Below are positions 29,244 through 36,078 of a stretch of DNA of 64,000 nucleotides, piece after piece (positions within the stretch are counted from its first letter, which is position 1; each line of letters begins with the position of its first letter). Location of the stretch: the NCBI GenBank assembly GCA_018816865.1, contig JAHIUW010000009.1, forward strand, positions 1-64,000, read 5' to 3'. Below the pieces are notes generated by a model, which was given only the letters and a program-made list of their open reading frames with translations, was not told where the DNA came from and did no database searches. A program made the translations under genes and the position numbers. The stretch comes from Pseudomonadota bacterium. GTDB taxonomy: Bacteria; Desulfobacterota; Desulfovibrionia; Desulfovibrionales; Desulfovibrionaceae.

Positions 29244-31163
29244 ATGATAGCAAAAACACAGGCTGAAGTTTCTCTGGAGGCATTGTCTGGGCAGCTCGAC
29301 GCCCATGTTGATGCCCTACGTCGGCTTTCCGGCGGGCTGGCCGAGCTGGTCTCCAGCAGGGAAGAAGAGTTTCTGGGGCTTGGCTCGAACCTGATGGAGT
29401 TCACTACTCGTTCCAGGTCTCTGACGCAAAGTGCTTCCGAATTGACCGATCTCTGCTCTGGCGATGAGGTCGCAGCAAACGCTGCGGCCCTGTCCGAGGA
29501 GCTGAGCAGCCTCTCGGCCATCTGCAACCCTGAAGATGCGGCAAAAGGGGCACGGGCCCTCGAACGGGTCATGACCCTGGTCTCCAGTCTGGGAGGACAG
29601 GTCGTGGAGTTCGGGCGGATCATCAAGAGCTTGACGATGCTCGGGATTTCGACCCGTATCGAGAGCGCTCGTCTGGGAGACCAAGGCTTGGGATTCAGCA
29701 CCCTGGCCGATGACGTGGAAACCCTGGCGAGCAAAATTGTTGAAAATTCGTCGTCCATCTCCATCAAATCAAAGTCTCTGGGTTCGCTTCTCGAGTCCGT
29801 TGACCTGCGCACCAAGGCCCTGACTCAGGAACAAGGCGAGTGCTCCAGCGGCATCCTCTCCGACATCGATTCCAGCCTGACCGCCTTGAACAAGATGATG
29901 GACCGTTCCAGGACGGGGGCCAGCCATATCGCCCAGCGAAGCGAAATCGTGATGGCCAATGTGGCGGAAGTCGTCTCCTCCCTCCAGTTCCATGACATCG
30001 TGCGCCAGCAGGTGGAGCACATCGAAGAGGCCCTCGACGAGATGGTCACCCAGGCTGATGAATACGCCCGGGGGGCGCAACTCCCCGTTGAAGACCGGGA
30101 GGAACAGGATGGTGCCGGAGCAGAAGCTGCGGGACGCACATCCCGCGAGGGCCGGGAGGGCATCCAGGACGTTGTGGGTTGGATTGCCGACGTGTCCGAA
30201 CTCCAGATTTCGCAATTGGACAATGCCAGTCAGCGTTTTGCTTCCGCCGTTGGCGGGCTGCGCGATGGATTGGCCGGTATTTCCGCTGCTGCGGGCGAGA
30301 TCGGAGCGGAGGTCTCAAGGGTCCTCTCCGCAGGCGAGAGCCATGACGGGGGGACGGTCTTGGACCGTGTCGGCAGGAGTACCAAGGCCGTACTGAGCGC
30401 CATGGAGGCTTTTTCCGATAAATCAGCCGAGATCGCCCAGCTGATCGGTTCCGTGACCGGGACTGTTGCCGAGATGACGGAATTTGTGAGTAGCATTGAG
30501 GAAGTCGGCTCTGAAATCGAGCTGATTGCCTTGAATGCGAGCATCAAGGCTGCCCATACCGGCGAGGAAGGCAAGGCTCTGGGCGTTCTGGCCCAGGCGA
30601 TCCAGCGGCTGTCCGTGGATGCCAGGGACAGGACCCAAGCCGTCTCGTCCATGTTGCTGGAAATTTCCCAGGCCTCGGCTGAGTTGGTGCTGGCTGCTGA
30701 TACCAAACAGCAGAAGGTGCTCATCGATCAATACGCCCAACGGCAACGTGAGCTGATGGCCGTTTTGGCCGAACTCTCGACGAGGCTTTCCGGGGCCGCT
30801 CGCGAGGTGTTGTCGCTGTCGTCCTCCTTGGGGACGGACATGGACAAACTGGTGAGCTCCATCCGTCTGGATGAACAGATTTGTCCCGGTCTTGACGATA
30901 CCCGTGCGGCGCTTCGCAGGATTGCGGATGCCTTACGTCTTTTGGTCCCGGTTTCGGATGACAGGGGACGCCCCAAGCGGTTGAAGGAACTGCTGTCCCG
31001 TTACACCATGGAGGCGGAGCGGACGGTTCATGAATCCACCTTCGGAGGCGGTGGTTCCAGGCCAGCGGCCACTCATGGGGGCGAGGGTGAGCTCGAACTG
31101 TTCGATGAACCGGACGGAGCCGCGCAGGACGAGGACGACTGGGATAACGTGGAGTTGTTCTGA
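29244..31163 (+). CDS. Soluble MCP-like protein with CheZ-like motif and C-terminal acidic tail
   Basis: A 639-residue, almost entirely helical protein without membrane segments. Two MCP-tip-like stretches occur: LGISTRIESARLGDQGLGFS (about 133-152) and LIALNASIKAAHTGEEGKAL (about 427-446). Between them, SSLQFHDIVRQQVEHI (245-260) matches the CheZ phosphatase motif D-x3-Q (Asp251, Gln255). The C-terminus is a flexible Gly-rich linker ending DDWDNVELF, similar in layout to the CheY-binding tail of CheZ and loosely to the CheR-binding NWETF pentapeptide. It heads an operon with STAS, CheY, CheA, CheR and CheB genes. It probably combines signalling input with CheY-P dephosphorylation; this is inferred. 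The ATG has no good ribosome site. Confidence 0.78.
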   Translation: MIAKTQAEVSLEALSGQLDAHVDALRRLSGGLAELVSSREEEFLGLGSNLMEFTTRSRSLTQSASELTDLCSGDEVAANAAALSEELSSLSAICNPEDAAKGARALERVMTLVSSLGGQVVEFGRIIKSLTMLGISTRIESARLGDQGLGFSTLADDVETLASKIVENSSSISIKSKSLGSLLESVDLRTKALTQEQGECSSGILSDIDSSLTALNKMMDRSRTGASHIAQRSEIVMANVAEVVSSLQFHDIVRQQVEHIEEALDEMVTQADEYARGAQLPVEDREEQDGAGAEAAGRTSREGREGIQDVVGWIADVSELQISQLDNASQRFASAVGGLRDGLAGISAAAGEIGAEVSRVLSAGESHDGGTVLDRVGRSTKAVLSAMEAFSDKSAEIAQLIGSVTGTVAEMTEFVSSIEEVGSEIELIALNASIKAAHTGEEGKALGVLAQAIQRLSVDARDRTQAVSSMLLEISQASAELVLAADTKQQKVLIDQYAQRQRELMAVLAELSTRLSGAAREVLSLSSSLGTDMDKLVSSIRLDEQICPGLDDTRAALRRIADALRLLVPVSDDRGRPKRLKELLSRYTMEAERTVHESTFGGGGSRPAATHGGEGELELFDEPDGAAQDEDDWDNVELF

Positions 31164-31188: not shown

Positions 31189-31512
31189 TTGGCAAAGTAC
31201 GATATGGTCGGCGCCGGTTCCGAGGGCACATTGGTGTTGTCGGGCGAGTGGACCATCGAGAGCGCGGCGCGGCTGAAACAGGCGTTGCAGGAGGCCTGCG
31301 AGCGGTTTGAATCGCTCGCATTGGACCTCTCTGGAGTGACGCGCGTGGACCTGATCTTTTTGCAGACGGTCTGCGCGGCCCAAGGCGAGTTGCAAAGTAA
31401 GGGCAGGGAATTGGGGACGGCAGGCCCAGTTTCAGCGGCAGTGGAAGAGCTTGCCGAGGCCGCCGGATTCCGGTTGGGTAGCGTTGATCATTGTTTTTGG
31501 AGGAGAAGATAG
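31189..31512 (+). CDS. STAS domain protein
   Basis: A 107-residue single STAS domain (anti-sigma antagonist fold): GTLVLSGEWTIESAARLKQAL, then LALDLSGVTRVDLIFLQTVCAAQ. In phosphorylated STAS proteins the residue after this Asp (Asp54) is Ser; here it is Leu, followed by Ile, so the usual phosphorylation switch is absent. TTG at 31189 follows GGAGG. It lies in a chemosensory operon directly before cheY with no gap, suggesting a scaffold or partner role for the MCP-like or CheA protein. Confidence 0.8.
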   Translation: MAKYDMVGAGSEGTLVLSGEWTIESAARLKQALQEACERFESLALDLSGVTRVDLIFLQTVCAAQGELQSKGRELGTAGPVSAAVEELAEAAGFRLGSVDHCFWRRR

Positions 31513-31872
31513 ATGGCTTTGATTATGACGGTGGATGATTCTGCAAGCGTTCGGCAGATGGTGAGCTTTACCCTGAAAAACGACGGTCATGAGGTGCTTG
31601 AGGCCTGTGACGGTAAGGACGCCTTGAGCAAGCTCTCGGGTCCCATCAAGATGGTCATCACCGACCTGAACATGCCTAATATGGACGGCATCGCCCTGAT
31701 CAAGAATATCAGGGCCAATGCCGCCTACAAGTTTATTCCGATCATTATGCTGACCACTGAGTCCCAGGCCGCGAAAAAGCAGGACGGCAAGGCCGCCGGA
31801 GCCACCGGATGGGTCGTCAAACCCTTCAAGCCCGAGCAGCTGCTGGCCGTGGTGAAAAAAGTACTCAGATAG
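31513..31872 (+). CDS. cheY: CheY-type response regulator
   Basis: A 119-residue single receiver domain. Acidic pocket Asp8/Asp9, phospho-acceptor Asp51 in VITDLNMPNMDG, Thr81 in MLTTES and Lys103 in VVKPFKPEQ are all present. Phosphorylated by CheA, it likely binds a motor or another output. GGAGGAG precedes the ATG. Confidence 0.93.
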   Translation: MALIMTVDDSASVRQMVSFTLKNDGHEVLEACDGKDALSKLSGPIKMVITDLNMPNMDGIALIKNIRANAAYKFIPIIMLTTESQAAKKQDGKAAGATGWVVKPFKPEQLLAVVKKVLR

Positions 31873-31959: not shown

Positions 31960-34065
31960 ATGTCGCAGGATGATATCAATCGCCAAGCCTTTCTCGAAGA
32001 GGCCAATGAGCTGCTGGCCGAGTTGGAAACGGCCCTGCTGGAACTCGAGGACACGCCGGATGATTCCGAGCTTGTGGACCGGGTCTTCCGGGCGATGCAT
32101 ACCATCAAGGGTTCCGGCGCCATGTTCGGATTCGAGGATGTGGCGCATTTCACCCACGACGTGGAAACCGTCTTCGACAAGGTCCGCTGCGGTGAGCTTT
32201 CCGTAACCAAGGAACTGCTGGACCTGACACTGGGCGCGCGGGACCATATCCTTGTGCTCCTGGAGGACGAGGGCGGCCAGGCCACCGGTTCTCCCCAGGC
32301 CGAGGCCATTATCGCCGGTCTGCGCAAGCTATTGGGTGTGGACGTTGAAACCGGCACCGCTGTTCAGTCCGAGGCCGAGTTGGATGACCTCAAGGGCTCG
32401 GCGTCCGGGGATATCGTTACCTATCGGATCCGTTTCAAGCCCGAGCCGGGGATCTTCAGCTCCGGTACCAATCCCCTGGCTCTGATCGAGGAATTGACCG
32501 AGATGGGTCTGCACCAGGTCGTGGCCCATACCGAGGGCATTCCACCGCTGTCCGAGCTTGATCCCGAGGATTGCCACATCTGGTGGGATGTCGTGCTGGC
32601 CACGGACCAGGGCGAGGACGCCATTCGCGACGTGTTCATCTTCGTGGATGACGATTGCGAATTGCTGATTCAGGTCATCGACAAGCTGGGGGTCCTGGAC
32701 AGCGACGCGAGCTACAAGCGTCTGGGCGAGATTCTGGTGGAGCGGGGCGATCTGACCCAGGACGATTTGAAAAACGTGCTGGGCGATCAGAGGCGCCTGG
32801 GCGACCTGCTCACCGAGGCCGGTGTGGTCTCCGAGGATCAGATCCGCTCGGCACTGGCCGAGCAGCAGGCCGTGCGCACCATGCGCAAGGTCAAGAAGGA
32901 AGAGACCACCGCCTCCAGCATCCGCGTGGGTGCCGACAAACTGGATTATCTGGTGGATCTGGTGGGCGAACTGGTCATTGTCCAGGCTCAGATCACCCAA
33001 GTCGCCGGGGAGAAGAGCGATCAGGTCTTCATCGAACTGGCCGAGGAGCTGGAACGGCTGACGGACGAACTGCGCGATTCCACGTTGTCGATCCGCATGC
33101 TGCCCATCGGCTCCACGTTCTCCAAGTTCAGGCGACTGGTGCGCGACTTGTCCGACGAATTGGGCAAGCAGATGGAATTGATCACCCATGGCGCTGAAAC
33201 CGAGTTGGACAAGACGGTGATCGAGCGCCTGAATGATCCGCTCGTTCACCTGCTGCGCAATTCCATCGACCACGGCATCGAATCCCCAGAGAAGCGGAAC
33301 GCCGCGGGCAAACCAGCCGTGGGGACGATCTCCCTCTCCGCCGAACATGCCGGGGGCGAGGTCCTGATCACCATCAAGGACGATGGTGCGGGCATGGACC
33401 GTGACGTCATTCTGGCCAAGGGCGTCGAGCGCGGGCTGGTGTCCAAGGATGCCGACCTCTCCGACAAGGAGATCTTTAGTCTGATCTTTGCCCCTGGATT
33501 TTCCACCGCGCACAAGGTGACCAGTGTCTCAGGGCGCGGTGTGGGCATGGACGTGGTCAAGCGCGGCATCGATTCCCTGCGCGGGGCCATCGACGTCAGC
33601 AGCACACGCGGCAAGGGAACGGCGATCACCGTTCGCCTGCCCCTGACCCTGGCCATCATCGATGGCCTGCAGATCAAGGTGCAGGATGAGCATTACGTCA
33701 TTCCCCTGTCTTTGGTGGAGGAATGCGTCGAGCTCATTCAGACTGCCGAGGAACGGGTTCGTGAACAGCAGGTCCTCAATCTGCGCGGCGATATCGTGCC
33801 CTATATCCGGTTGCGCGACTGGTTCACCGTCCCGGGGATTCCCCCGGAGATCGAGCAGGTGGTGGTCACCGGGTTTGACGGCAGCCGCATCGGGATCGTC
33901 GTGGACCATGTCATCGGCGAACACCAGACCGTGATCAAGAGCCTGGGACGGGTGTATCGCGATGTGGATGGCATCTCCGGAGCAACCATCAAGGGGGACG
34001 GCTCCATGGCGCTTATCCTGGACGTGCCGCAGATCATCCGTAGCGCGTCCTCGGGCCGGGGTTGA
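31960..34065 (+). CDS. cheA: Chemotaxis histidine kinase CheA with MshEN-like motif pair
   Basis: A 701-residue kinase that phosphorylates CheY and CheB. P1 (HPt) has the phospho-His in FRAMHTIKGSG (His47); residues 150-245 look like a response-regulator-binding P2 domain; residues 330-385 are the dimerisation helices; the ATPase has HLLRNSIDHGIE (N box), DDGAGMD (G1), GFSTAHKVTSVSGRGVGMD (F/G2, given in pieces: GFSTA, GRGVGMD); the C-terminus is the CheW-like P5. Unusually, residues 254-277 and 279-302 are two motifs of the form RLGxxL-x3-G-x2-x4-[LI]-x3-L-x2-Q, like the MshEN cyclic-di-GMP motif. ATG at 31960 follows GGGAG. No CheW gene is adjacent. Confidence 0.93.
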   Translation: MSQDDINRQAFLEEANELLAELETALLELEDTPDDSELVDRVFRAMHTIKGSGAMFGFEDVAHFTHDVETVFDKVRCGELSVTKELLDLTLGARDHILVLLEDEGGQATGSPQAEAIIAGLRKLLGVDVETGTAVQSEAELDDLKGSASGDIVTYRIRFKPEPGIFSSGTNPLALIEELTEMGLHQVVAHTEGIPPLSELDPEDCHIWWDVVLATDQGEDAIRDVFIFVDDDCELLIQVIDKLGVLDSDASYKRLGEILVERGDLTQDDLKNVLGDQRRLGDLLTEAGVVSEDQIRSALAEQQAVRTMRKVKKEETTASSIRVGADKLDYLVDLVGELVIVQAQITQVAGEKSDQVFIELAEELERLTDELRDSTLSIRMLPIGSTFSKFRRLVRDLSDELGKQMELITHGAETELDKTVIERLNDPLVHLLRNSIDHGIESPEKRNAAGKPAVGTISLSAEHAGGEVLITIKDDGAGMDRDVILAKGVERGLVSKDADLSDKEIFSLIFAPGFSTAHKVTSVSGRGVGMDVVKRGIDSLRGAIDVSSTRGKGTAITVRLPLTLAIIDGLQIKVQDEHYVIPLSLVEECVELIQTAEERVREQQVLNLRGDIVPYIRLRDWFTVPGIPPEIEQVVVTGFDGSRIGIVVDHVIGEHQTVIKSLGRVYRDVDGISGATIKGDGSMALILDVPQIIRSASSGRG

Positions 34066-34157: not shown

Positions 34158-34973
34158 ATGAGCGACAAGGATTTCAAGCGTTTTGCCGAGTTCATCCATG
34201 AGGAATGCGGCATCAAGCTGCCACCCTCCAAGAAGACTATGCTTGAGGCGCGACTGCAGAAACGGCTGCGTGTCTTGGGATATGAGGGGTACAAGGAATA
34301 TTGTGAATTCCTGTTCACCCCCGAAGGCATGGAATGCGAGTTGTGCAACCTGATCGATCAGGTGACCACCAACACCACGGATTTCTTCCGTGAACCCAAA
34401 CATTTCGAGCATCTGTACGCGACGCTGCTGCCCCAGTGGATGGCGCAAAACGGAGATCGGCAGGCGCTGAAGATATGGAGCGCTGGTTGTTCCATCGGGG
34501 CGGAGCCGTACACCATGGCCTTCGTGCTTTCCGATTTTCAGCAGGCGAATCCCCAGTTCCGGTTCAAGGTTCTGGCCACGGACATTTCTTCCGAGGTGCT
34601 GGGCAAGGCGGCGCGCGGGGTCTACAGCCAGGAGCAGGCGCGGGGGGTGCCCGGAGCCGTGCTGCGCAAGTATTTTCTGCGGAGCAAGGACCGCGACAAG
34701 AAGCTGGTGCGCGTGGCCCCTGAGATTCGGCGGCTGGTGGAGTTCAGGCAGCTGAATTTCATGGAATCCTTCACCTTTCGTGAAGCCAAGGACATCATTT
34801 TCTGCCGCAATGTGATCATCTATTTCGACAAGCCGACCCAGGCCCGCCTGATGCAGAAGTTTTGCGCGAATCTGAAGCCCGGAGGGCATCTGTTCATCGG
34901 ACACTCGGAAAGTCTGGCTGGTCAGAATCTGCCCCTGGAGCAGGTTGCGCCGACCATCTACAGAAAAGCCTGA
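34158..34973 (+). CDS. cheR: Chemotaxis protein methyltransferase CheR
   Basis: A 271-residue S-adenosylmethionine-dependent enzyme that methylates receptor glutamates. The N-terminal helical domain ([19 protein letters not shown]) and the catalytic domain with [28 protein letters not shown], and FCRNVIIYF are complete. The ATG at 34158 begins at the usual start of the family; earlier in-frame ATGs at 34074 and 34077, near a GGGGGG stretch by the cheA stop, would add up to 28 poorly conserved-looking residues. Lies between cheA and cheB. Confidence 0.93.
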
Positions 34974-35001
34974 TGGATTCGGGTTTGTGAAAGGGAGAGG
35001 C

Positions 35002-36078
35002 ATGGGGAAGAAAATCAAGGTGCTCATCGTGGACGACTCGGCGGTGGTGCGCAACACCATCGCGGAGTTGGTGTCATCCGATCCTGACCTGGAGGTCATG
35101 GATACGGCCGCCGATCCCTTTGTGGCGGCCAAGAAGATGGAGCTTCAGGTTCCCGACGTCATCATCCTGGACGTCGAGATGCCGCGCATGGACGGCCTGA
35201 CCTTCCTGCGCAAGATCATGAGCCAGCACCCGATTCCCGTGATCATGTGTTCAACGTTGACCGAGAAGGGCTCGGAGACCTTGTTGCGCGCCCTGGAATA
35301 CGGGGCTGTGGACATCATCCAGAAACCCAAATTGGGCACCAAGCAGTTCCTGGAAGAATCCAGGATACGTTTCACCGACGCCATCAAGGCCGCGGCCAGC
35401 GCCAAGATGGAAAAGAGGGCGGTCCACAAGGCAATCAAGATCCAGCCCAAGCTCTCGGCCGACGCCGTGATCGACAGTCCGACTCCTGGGTTGAGCAAGC
35501 TGCAGACCACGGAAAAGGTCGTGGCCGTGGGGGCTTCCACCGGTGGCACCGAAGCCCTGCGAATATTTCTGGAGGCTTTGCCCCGCAACTGTCCCGGGGT
35601 GGTCATCGTGCAGCACATGCCCGAGATGTTCACGGCGGCCTTCTCCAAGCGCCTGGACTCCACCTGTGTGATCAAGGTCAAGGAGGCAGCCGATGGCGAC
35701 ACCGTGCTCCCCGGGCAGGCCCTCATCGCTCCGGGCAACAAGCACATGCTCCTGAAGCGCAGCGGGGCGCGCTATTACGTGGAGATCAAGGATGGGCCGT
35801 TGGTGCGCAGGCATCGTCCCAGTGTGGATGTGCTGTTCCGCTCCGCGGCCCGCTACGGTGGAGGCAACGTCATCGGCGTGATCATGACCGGCATGGGTGA
35901 CGACGGGGCCGTGGGCATGAAGGAGATGAAGGACGCCGGGGCGTATACCATTGCCCAGGACGAGGCGACCTGTGTGGTCTACGGCATGCCCGGTGAGGCC
36001 GTGAAGGCGGGTGGGGTGGACAGAATTTTGCCCCTGGAGAGGATCGCGCCGGAGGTGGTTCGCCTGGGTTCGACCTGA
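35002..36078 (+). CDS. cheB: Chemotaxis-specific methylesterase CheB
   Basis: A 358-residue protein with an N-terminal receiver (Asp11/Asp12, phospho-Asp57 in [11 protein letters not shown]) and a C-terminal methylesterase: catalytic Ser179 in GASTGG, His205 in VQHMP and Asp301 in MTGMGDDG. It removes methyl groups placed by CheR, closing the adaptation loop. GGGAGAGG lies upstream of the ATG at 35002. Last gene of the operon. Confidence 0.95.

Follow-up and report, generated by a model that had tools for sequence, protein, structure and literature searches.

The first gene of a chemosensory operon in the window (the whole 64,000-nucleotide stretch of DNA analysed here) encodes P0001, a protein that looks like a chemoreceptor. 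A sequence-only reading of this gene drew attention to a stretch that lines up with the active site of the CheY-P phosphatase CheZ, and this raises the question of whether P0001 senses a signal, ends one, or does something else. As judged from sequence comparisons, it is probably a CheY-P phosphatase whose scaffold is a chemoreceptor signalling hairpin in two copies, with CheY as the presumed substrate of a presumed catalytic site.

Architecture of P0001

The open reading frame is intact in the window. Its features are as follows, with residue numbers referring to P0001.

29244-31163, + strand: P0001, a soluble tandem MCP-like protein with a CheZ-type site, 639 aa
29307-30071, + strand: repeat 1 (about residues 22-276), an MCP-like hairpin that keeps the phosphatase-type site
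29634-29708, + strand: first MCP-tip-like stretch, TMLGISTRIESARLGDQGLGFSTLA (residues 131-155)
29973-30020, + strand: CheZ-like active-site segment, VSSLQFHDIVRQQVEH (residues 244-259), with invariant residues, aligned with E. coli CheZ 136-151
29994-30008, + strand: D251 to Q255, placed on E. coli CheZ D143 and Q147 by an ungapped profile alignment
30255-30947, + strand: repeat 2 (about residues 338-568), an MCP-like hairpin without a conserved DxxxQ, assigned from the internal duplication
30516-30581, + strand: second MCP-tip-like stretch, IELIALNASIKAAHTGEEGKAL (residues 425-446), with N431 invariant
31002-31031, + strand: conserved YTMEAERTVH motif (residues 587-596), with T588, M589 and E592 invariant in 73 relatives
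31053-31145, + strand: acidic, low-confidence linker (residues 604-634; pLDDT <50 for 604-633)
31146-31160, + strand: C-terminal NVELF (family consensus GDN[VFI][DE][LF]F), with N635 and F639 invariant in both the 73- and the 91-sequence sets

A Pfam search of P0001 returned MCPsignal (PF00015) at 61.4 bits, against a cut-off of 34.6, in two stretches (the best at residues 382-528) and nothing else of note; the same profile matched all 73 aligned relatives at E<1. When the N half was compared with the MCPs of the same genome by hhalign, TMLGISTRIESARLGDQGLGFSTLA fell on the MCP tip (P=1.6e-7). The two tip-like stretches of the sequence-only reading are upheld. We rely on profile–profile results here, because an MCP HMM built from 15 proteins of this genome was weak for single sequences.

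Long helices make up both AlphaFold models, the one of the whole protein (pLDDT 84.8) and the one of residues 1-290 (pLDDT 85.5). The closest solved structures are MCP cytoplasmic domains, namely 2ch7 for the N half (TMq 0.66) and 3g67 for the full model (TMt 0.73), and among the top 50 Foldseek matches in the PDB for either monomer model MCPs lead and CheZ is absent. DSSP assignments for these models run the helices unbroken through both tip regions, the matches to the MCP-hairpin fold notwithstanding.

Within the family, the N-terminal half can be aligned with the C-terminal half over 232 columns (P=3.6e-12), and P0001 therefore reads as a tandem duplication of a single-hairpin unit minus its membrane part. 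The two copies have diverged. Tip residues SARLGDQGLGF are kept in the first repeat across a set of 14 sequences, and the second tip has KAAH where EAAR is expected. At the position equivalent to the CheZ-type site, repeat 2 of P0001 has IRLDEQICPG, which is not conserved, although a remnant in two genomes (G017 and G055) weakly matches the single-hairpin profile described below (2.5e-6 and 2.7e-6). By these alignments only repeat 1 of P0001 keeps the site, and repeat 2 has lost it.

Might P0001 simply be a cytoplasmic chemoreceptor, sensing something and controlling CheA, with its DxxxQ stretch serving in helix packing? The PF00015 score, the structural matches and the intact first tip all fit such a role. 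However, no sensory Pfam domain was found in P0001, nor any membrane helix (maximum KD19 1.24), and it contains none of the methylation consensus sites [ASTG][ASTG]xx[EQ][EQ]xx[ASTG][ASTG] (family mean 0.27). Among the 15 other MCP-type proteins in this genome, the count of these sites is one to five per protein, and all but L005 carry a strongly hydrophobic segment. The degenerate second tip also speaks against a receptor, as does the finding, detailed below, that invariance clusters most strongly in the CheZ-like segment and not in the tips. We consider this explanation improbable.

The CheZ-like segment of repeat 1

A bare DxxxQ string is uninformative, as P0001 holds six copies and each of the 15 ordinary MCP-type proteins of the genome holds at least one. 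The copy of interest lies in SSLQFHDIVRQQ (residues 245-256), which contains D251 and Q255. Relatives of P0001 were found by an alignment-based scan of genome contigs, where a single-sequence scan had given no match; tblastn against plasmids gave none either. In the set of 14 sequences, obtained by whole-protein search with no selection on the motif, V244, Q248, D251, R254, Q255, Q256, H259, N635, V636 and F639 are invariant. All 73 of the 73 relatives that were aligned likewise have D251 and Q255, and both residues stay invariant in a set of 91 sequences. Just 15 of the 639 positions are invariant in the 73-sequence alignment, and six of these (V244, Q248, D251, R254, Q255 and H259) fall within residues 244-259. 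Equivalents of D251 and Q255 are kept by 11 more relatives, sampled at the level of genus, family and order and all located by whole-protein profile rather than by motif. Conservation across the 80 loci of the alignment-based scan is weaker evidence, because these were fetched by patterns that included the motif or YTMxSER and the conservation is thus partly a product of selection. The other five DxxxQ strings of P0001 vary freely across relatives, which led us to reject a chance occurrence.

A CheZ profile, in which E. coli CheZ was joined by 15 CheZ-type proteins from the phylum, was aligned with the 73-sequence P0001 family using HHalign. The result was an ungapped alignment of 50 columns, CheZ 114-163 on P0001 222-271, with a score of 39.7 and P=1.7e-4. 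Its register is exact to the residue, placing D143 on D251 and Q147 on Q255, just as the sequence-only reading had proposed. Controls gave lower scores: at best 28.2 for 30 heptad-block shuffles, 23.6 for the reversed family, 23.9 for reversed CheZ and 28.4 for CheZ against ordinary MCPs from this genome. Since the reversed, shuffled and ordinary-MCP controls were all much weaker, general coiled-coil similarity was rejected as the source of the match.

The Pfam CheZ profile (PF04344) has a cut-off of 30.7 bits. Where the earlier reading had proposed profile searches against MCP domains and CheZ, the former passed its cut-off and the latter found no match in P0001. At E<1, PF04344 matches 12 of the 73 relatives, the best of them at 6.6e-5. 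Matches scored in whole genomes stay below the cut-off, and two of these lie inside the P0001-family gene, in G066 and G204.

One further sub-cut-off PF04344 match led to a different protein, P0002 (L158, 417 aa), which has hydrophobic N-terminal segments, a canonical MCP tip, the string FQDVVRQ and the tail KLELF, and which matches MCPsignal (101 bits) together with CheZ (5e-6, below cut-off). Using the end of P0002 as query, and then a five-sequence profile, we gathered 15 such single-hairpin proteins (L158, L162, L163, L165, L166, L171-L173, L176, L178-L182 and L184). All have a canonical tip, most have hydrophobic N-terminal segments, and a site of the FQD[IV]xRQ type lies 100-102 residues past the tip phenylalanine. 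The corresponding distance in the tandem family is 100 residues in 72 sequences and 99 in one. Five of the 15 were scanned against Pfam and gave PF00015 at 99-117 bits plus sub-cut-off PF04344 matches (best 5e-6); one of the five also matches the NCBIfam CheZ model (1.3e-4). Their tails are short and hydrophobic, of the IELF/VVLF/NVELF type, and one reads DFGDNVELF, as in the tandem family. One member (L166) sits upstream of a cheA-like ORF.

The single-hairpin class aligns by HHalign with CheZ (P=3.8e-8) and with repeat 1 of the tandem family (P=1.9e-23 over 257 columns), and this double match supports homology between P0001 and CheZ. A profile of its C-terminal part, run against the whole genome of the window at E<=1e-4, hit two places only, the site in P0001 (1.1e-8) and the genome's true CheZ (1.4e-6). 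The homology of the repeat 1 segment with the CheZ active-site segment is therefore well supported by these alignments. The earlier idea of a CheZ-type site in an MCP-like protein thus gains from the conservation, the profile register and the bridging class, and is left without a Pfam CheZ match in P0001 itself.

A second conserved motif, YTMxxERxxH, directly precedes the linker. It is conserved to the same degree as the catalytic segment and is common to the single-hairpin relatives, with YTM/YVM..[EQ]R in 13 of the 15.

The residue preceding the catalytic Gln is an invariant Arg in the P0001 family and Gly in all CheZ sequences listed, a change that could alter or abolish activity.

Operon partners and the C-terminal tail

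P0001 is first in an operon of the order P0001-STAS-cheY-cheA-cheR-cheB, whose remaining genes are listed here.

31189-31512, + strand: STAS-domain protein, probable TTG start after GGAGG, 25 bases downstream of P0001 (STAS_2, 54.3 bits)
31513-31872, + strand: CheY (PF00072, 87 bits), with N59, E89 and K109 kept and W106, K95 and K99 distinctive
31960-34065, + strand: CheA (domain matches to Hpt, H-kinase_dim, HATPase_c and CheW) with an MshE-related c-di-GMP motif
34158-34973, + strand: CheR (PF01739, 209 bits)
34999-36078, + strand: CheB (PF01339, 231 bits)

The order family protein-STAS-CheY-CheA recurs in most of the 80 loci, a count in which some of the short STAS proteins were missed, and CheR and CheB are usually nearby. 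Among the CheYs linked to the family, N59 is present in 68 of 72, and E89 and K109 in all. W106, T88, S90 and K95, with K or R at 99, are common to all 72 and differ from E. coli CheY; the W106, K95 and K/R99 set is not shared by 11 other receivers encoded at these loci. The face of CheY that carries positions 106, 95 and 99 binds CheZ and FliM in E. coli.

Residues 254-302 of the window's CheA, between the Hpt and dimerisation domains, match the MshE-related c-di-GMP-binding motif NF053729 (46.3 bits, cut-off 38), and the match suggests direct control of the kinase by c-di-GMP. In relatives, the CheA motif is over cut-off in L072 and L037 and just below it in L105, and it is not listed for L115 and L107.

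P0001 ends in DDWDNVELF, and the sequence-only reading likened this end both to the CheY-binding tail of CheZ and to the NWETF pentapeptide bound by CheR. The first likeness holds in layout, in that a flexible linker leads to a short conserved end, and not in sequence, as there is no match to the CheZ consensus DxVDxLLxxLGF. The second breaks a published rule: CheR-tethering pentapeptides have the form xZxxZ, with Z aromatic at positions 2 and 5 (PMC7390727); NVELF has Val at position 2, and was rejected as a standard CheR pentapeptide.

These facts bear on a further explanation, in which P0001 assists adaptation: like NWETF on Tar and Tsr, its tail would bring CheR (or CheB) to arrays, with only a secondary part for the phosphatase-like stretch. 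The operon includes cheR and cheB, and tails in a few relatives (NFELF and NFDLF) fit xZxxZ. Binding to CheR is also reported for CheT, a further DXXXQ phosphatase that is not a CheZ (PMC12654446), so CheR stays an option for the P0001 tail. Nevertheless, 82 of 91 sequences have Val at tail position 2, against the rule, and two ordinary MCPs of the window's own genome (L003 and L011) already carry proper aromatic CheR-type pentapeptides, EFERF and AFERF. We regard tethering of CheR or CheB as the main role of P0001 as very improbable. The acidic tail, set beside a CheY surface with two extra lysines, is circumstantial evidence in favour of CheY as its putative partner.

How might P0001 act as a phosphatase, the role we favour? 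In E. coli CheZ, D143 contacts an invariant lysine of CheY and Q147 positions the attacking water, a mechanism reportedly described by Zhao et al. in 2002 (cited in PMC10782961). By analogy, D251 would contact the invariant CheY lysine K109, and Q255 would position the attacking water. Repeat 1 would carry this CheZ active site on its descending helix, 100 residues past the MCP tip, at what would be the place of the second methylation helix in a true receptor. Repeat 2, its own site lost, may take the place of a second subunit by packing against repeat 1 within the chain. Docking at the CheA/receptor array would fall to the MCP-type tips, and capture of CheY (the partner we prefer) or CheR to the flexible acidic tail, GDNV[DE]LF. 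The proposal is framed at the level of residues, namely D251, Q255 and the tail.

Occurrence and relation to known systems

Geobacter lacks CheZ according to Tran et al. 2008 (PMC2577667). Of 76 genomes in the family to which Geobacter sp. H7geo belongs, 60 have a P0001-type protein and none has CheZ over the Pfam cut-off. In a sample of 148 genomes of the phylum, 13 have a P0001-type protein and five of these 13 also have CheZ. Strict mutual exclusion of the two was therefore rejected; it is true in the Geobacter family and not across the phylum. The record titles of the 80-locus scan cover Geobacteraceae, Desulfobulbaceae, Syntrophus, Nitrospirae and Ignavibacteria, and occurrence beyond the phylum is read from these titles. 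In one MAG contig (L113, 8995-10044) the coding sequence of the family member is broken up into overlapping frames, through frameshifts or assembly error. The P0001 family is large and apparently undescribed, and includes many bacteria thought to have no CheZ.

The genome of the window itself has P0001, a true CheZ and two CheX matches. P0001 is thus not the sole candidate CheY phosphatase there, and need not be a phosphatase at all. It could instead be a scaffold or sink, with the CheZ-like segment as a non-catalytic CheY-docking surface and the protein as a whole localising CheY, CheA and STAS at an array. The invariant Arg in place of Gly and the conserved STAS, CheY and CheA neighbours can be read in the same way as the presence of CheZ. 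Against this, D251 and Q255 are both invariant, although their loss from the second copy, in repeat 2, was tolerated, and the Geobacter family has the protein in most genomes and CheZ over cut-off in none. We judge a pure scaffold or sink unlikely, if less so than the receptor and adaptation roles considered above, and keep a CheY-P phosphatase as the probable function.

CheZ or CheC/CheX are the phosphatases named for most systems (PMC10782961), and the P0001 family adds a candidate type beyond them. Chemotaxis pathways without CheZ are common, and in the Geobacter family P0001-type proteins put a CheZ-type site into most genomes. This suggests that signal termination can be part of the receptor scaffold itself. 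More broadly, and tentatively (we lean somewhat against it at present), there may be a class of chemoreceptor-type proteins with a CheY-P phosphatase site at the place of the methylation helix, and CheZ and the MCP hairpin may share an origin. If so, in the membrane-anchored single-hairpin members receptor conformation could directly gate removal of CheY-P, and the signal would act via a phosphatase rather than a kinase. No account of MCP and CheZ joined in a single protein was found in the literature searched, subscription literature being outside its scope.

P0001 can be set against four known systems. With CheZ (PF04344; E. coli) it shares the active-site segment residue for residue, a helical build, and a flexible C-terminal linker with a short conserved end. 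Unlike CheZ, it is a 639-aa protein of tandem MCP-like hairpins, with Arg before the catalytic Gln, no Pfam CheZ match, and a family tail GDNV[DE]LF where CheZ has DxVDxLLxxLGF. The likeness to the MCP signalling domain (PF00015; Thermotoga 2ch7, 3g67) is one of sequence and fold, with tip-like stretches in both halves of P0001; the differences are two hairpins per chain, a degenerate second tip, and a lack of membrane helix, sensor and methylation consensus.

Sinorhizobium CheT is a DXXXQ CheY phosphatase, reported to have a CheZ-like predicted structure and to bind CheR (Agbekudzi et al. 2024, as cited in PMC12654446). It resembles P0001 in having a DXXXQ motif outside CheZ and in a chemotaxis operon. 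In that cited account CheT is not described as MCP-like, and we set it apart by description. Finally, Rhodobacter sphaeroides CheA3 has a phosphatase domain specific for CheY6 (as cited in PMC2829493). There too, a CheY phosphatase resides within another chemotaxis protein, at a cytoplasmic cluster, but the host there is a CheA, with domains P1 and P5, whereas in P0001 it is a receptor hairpin.
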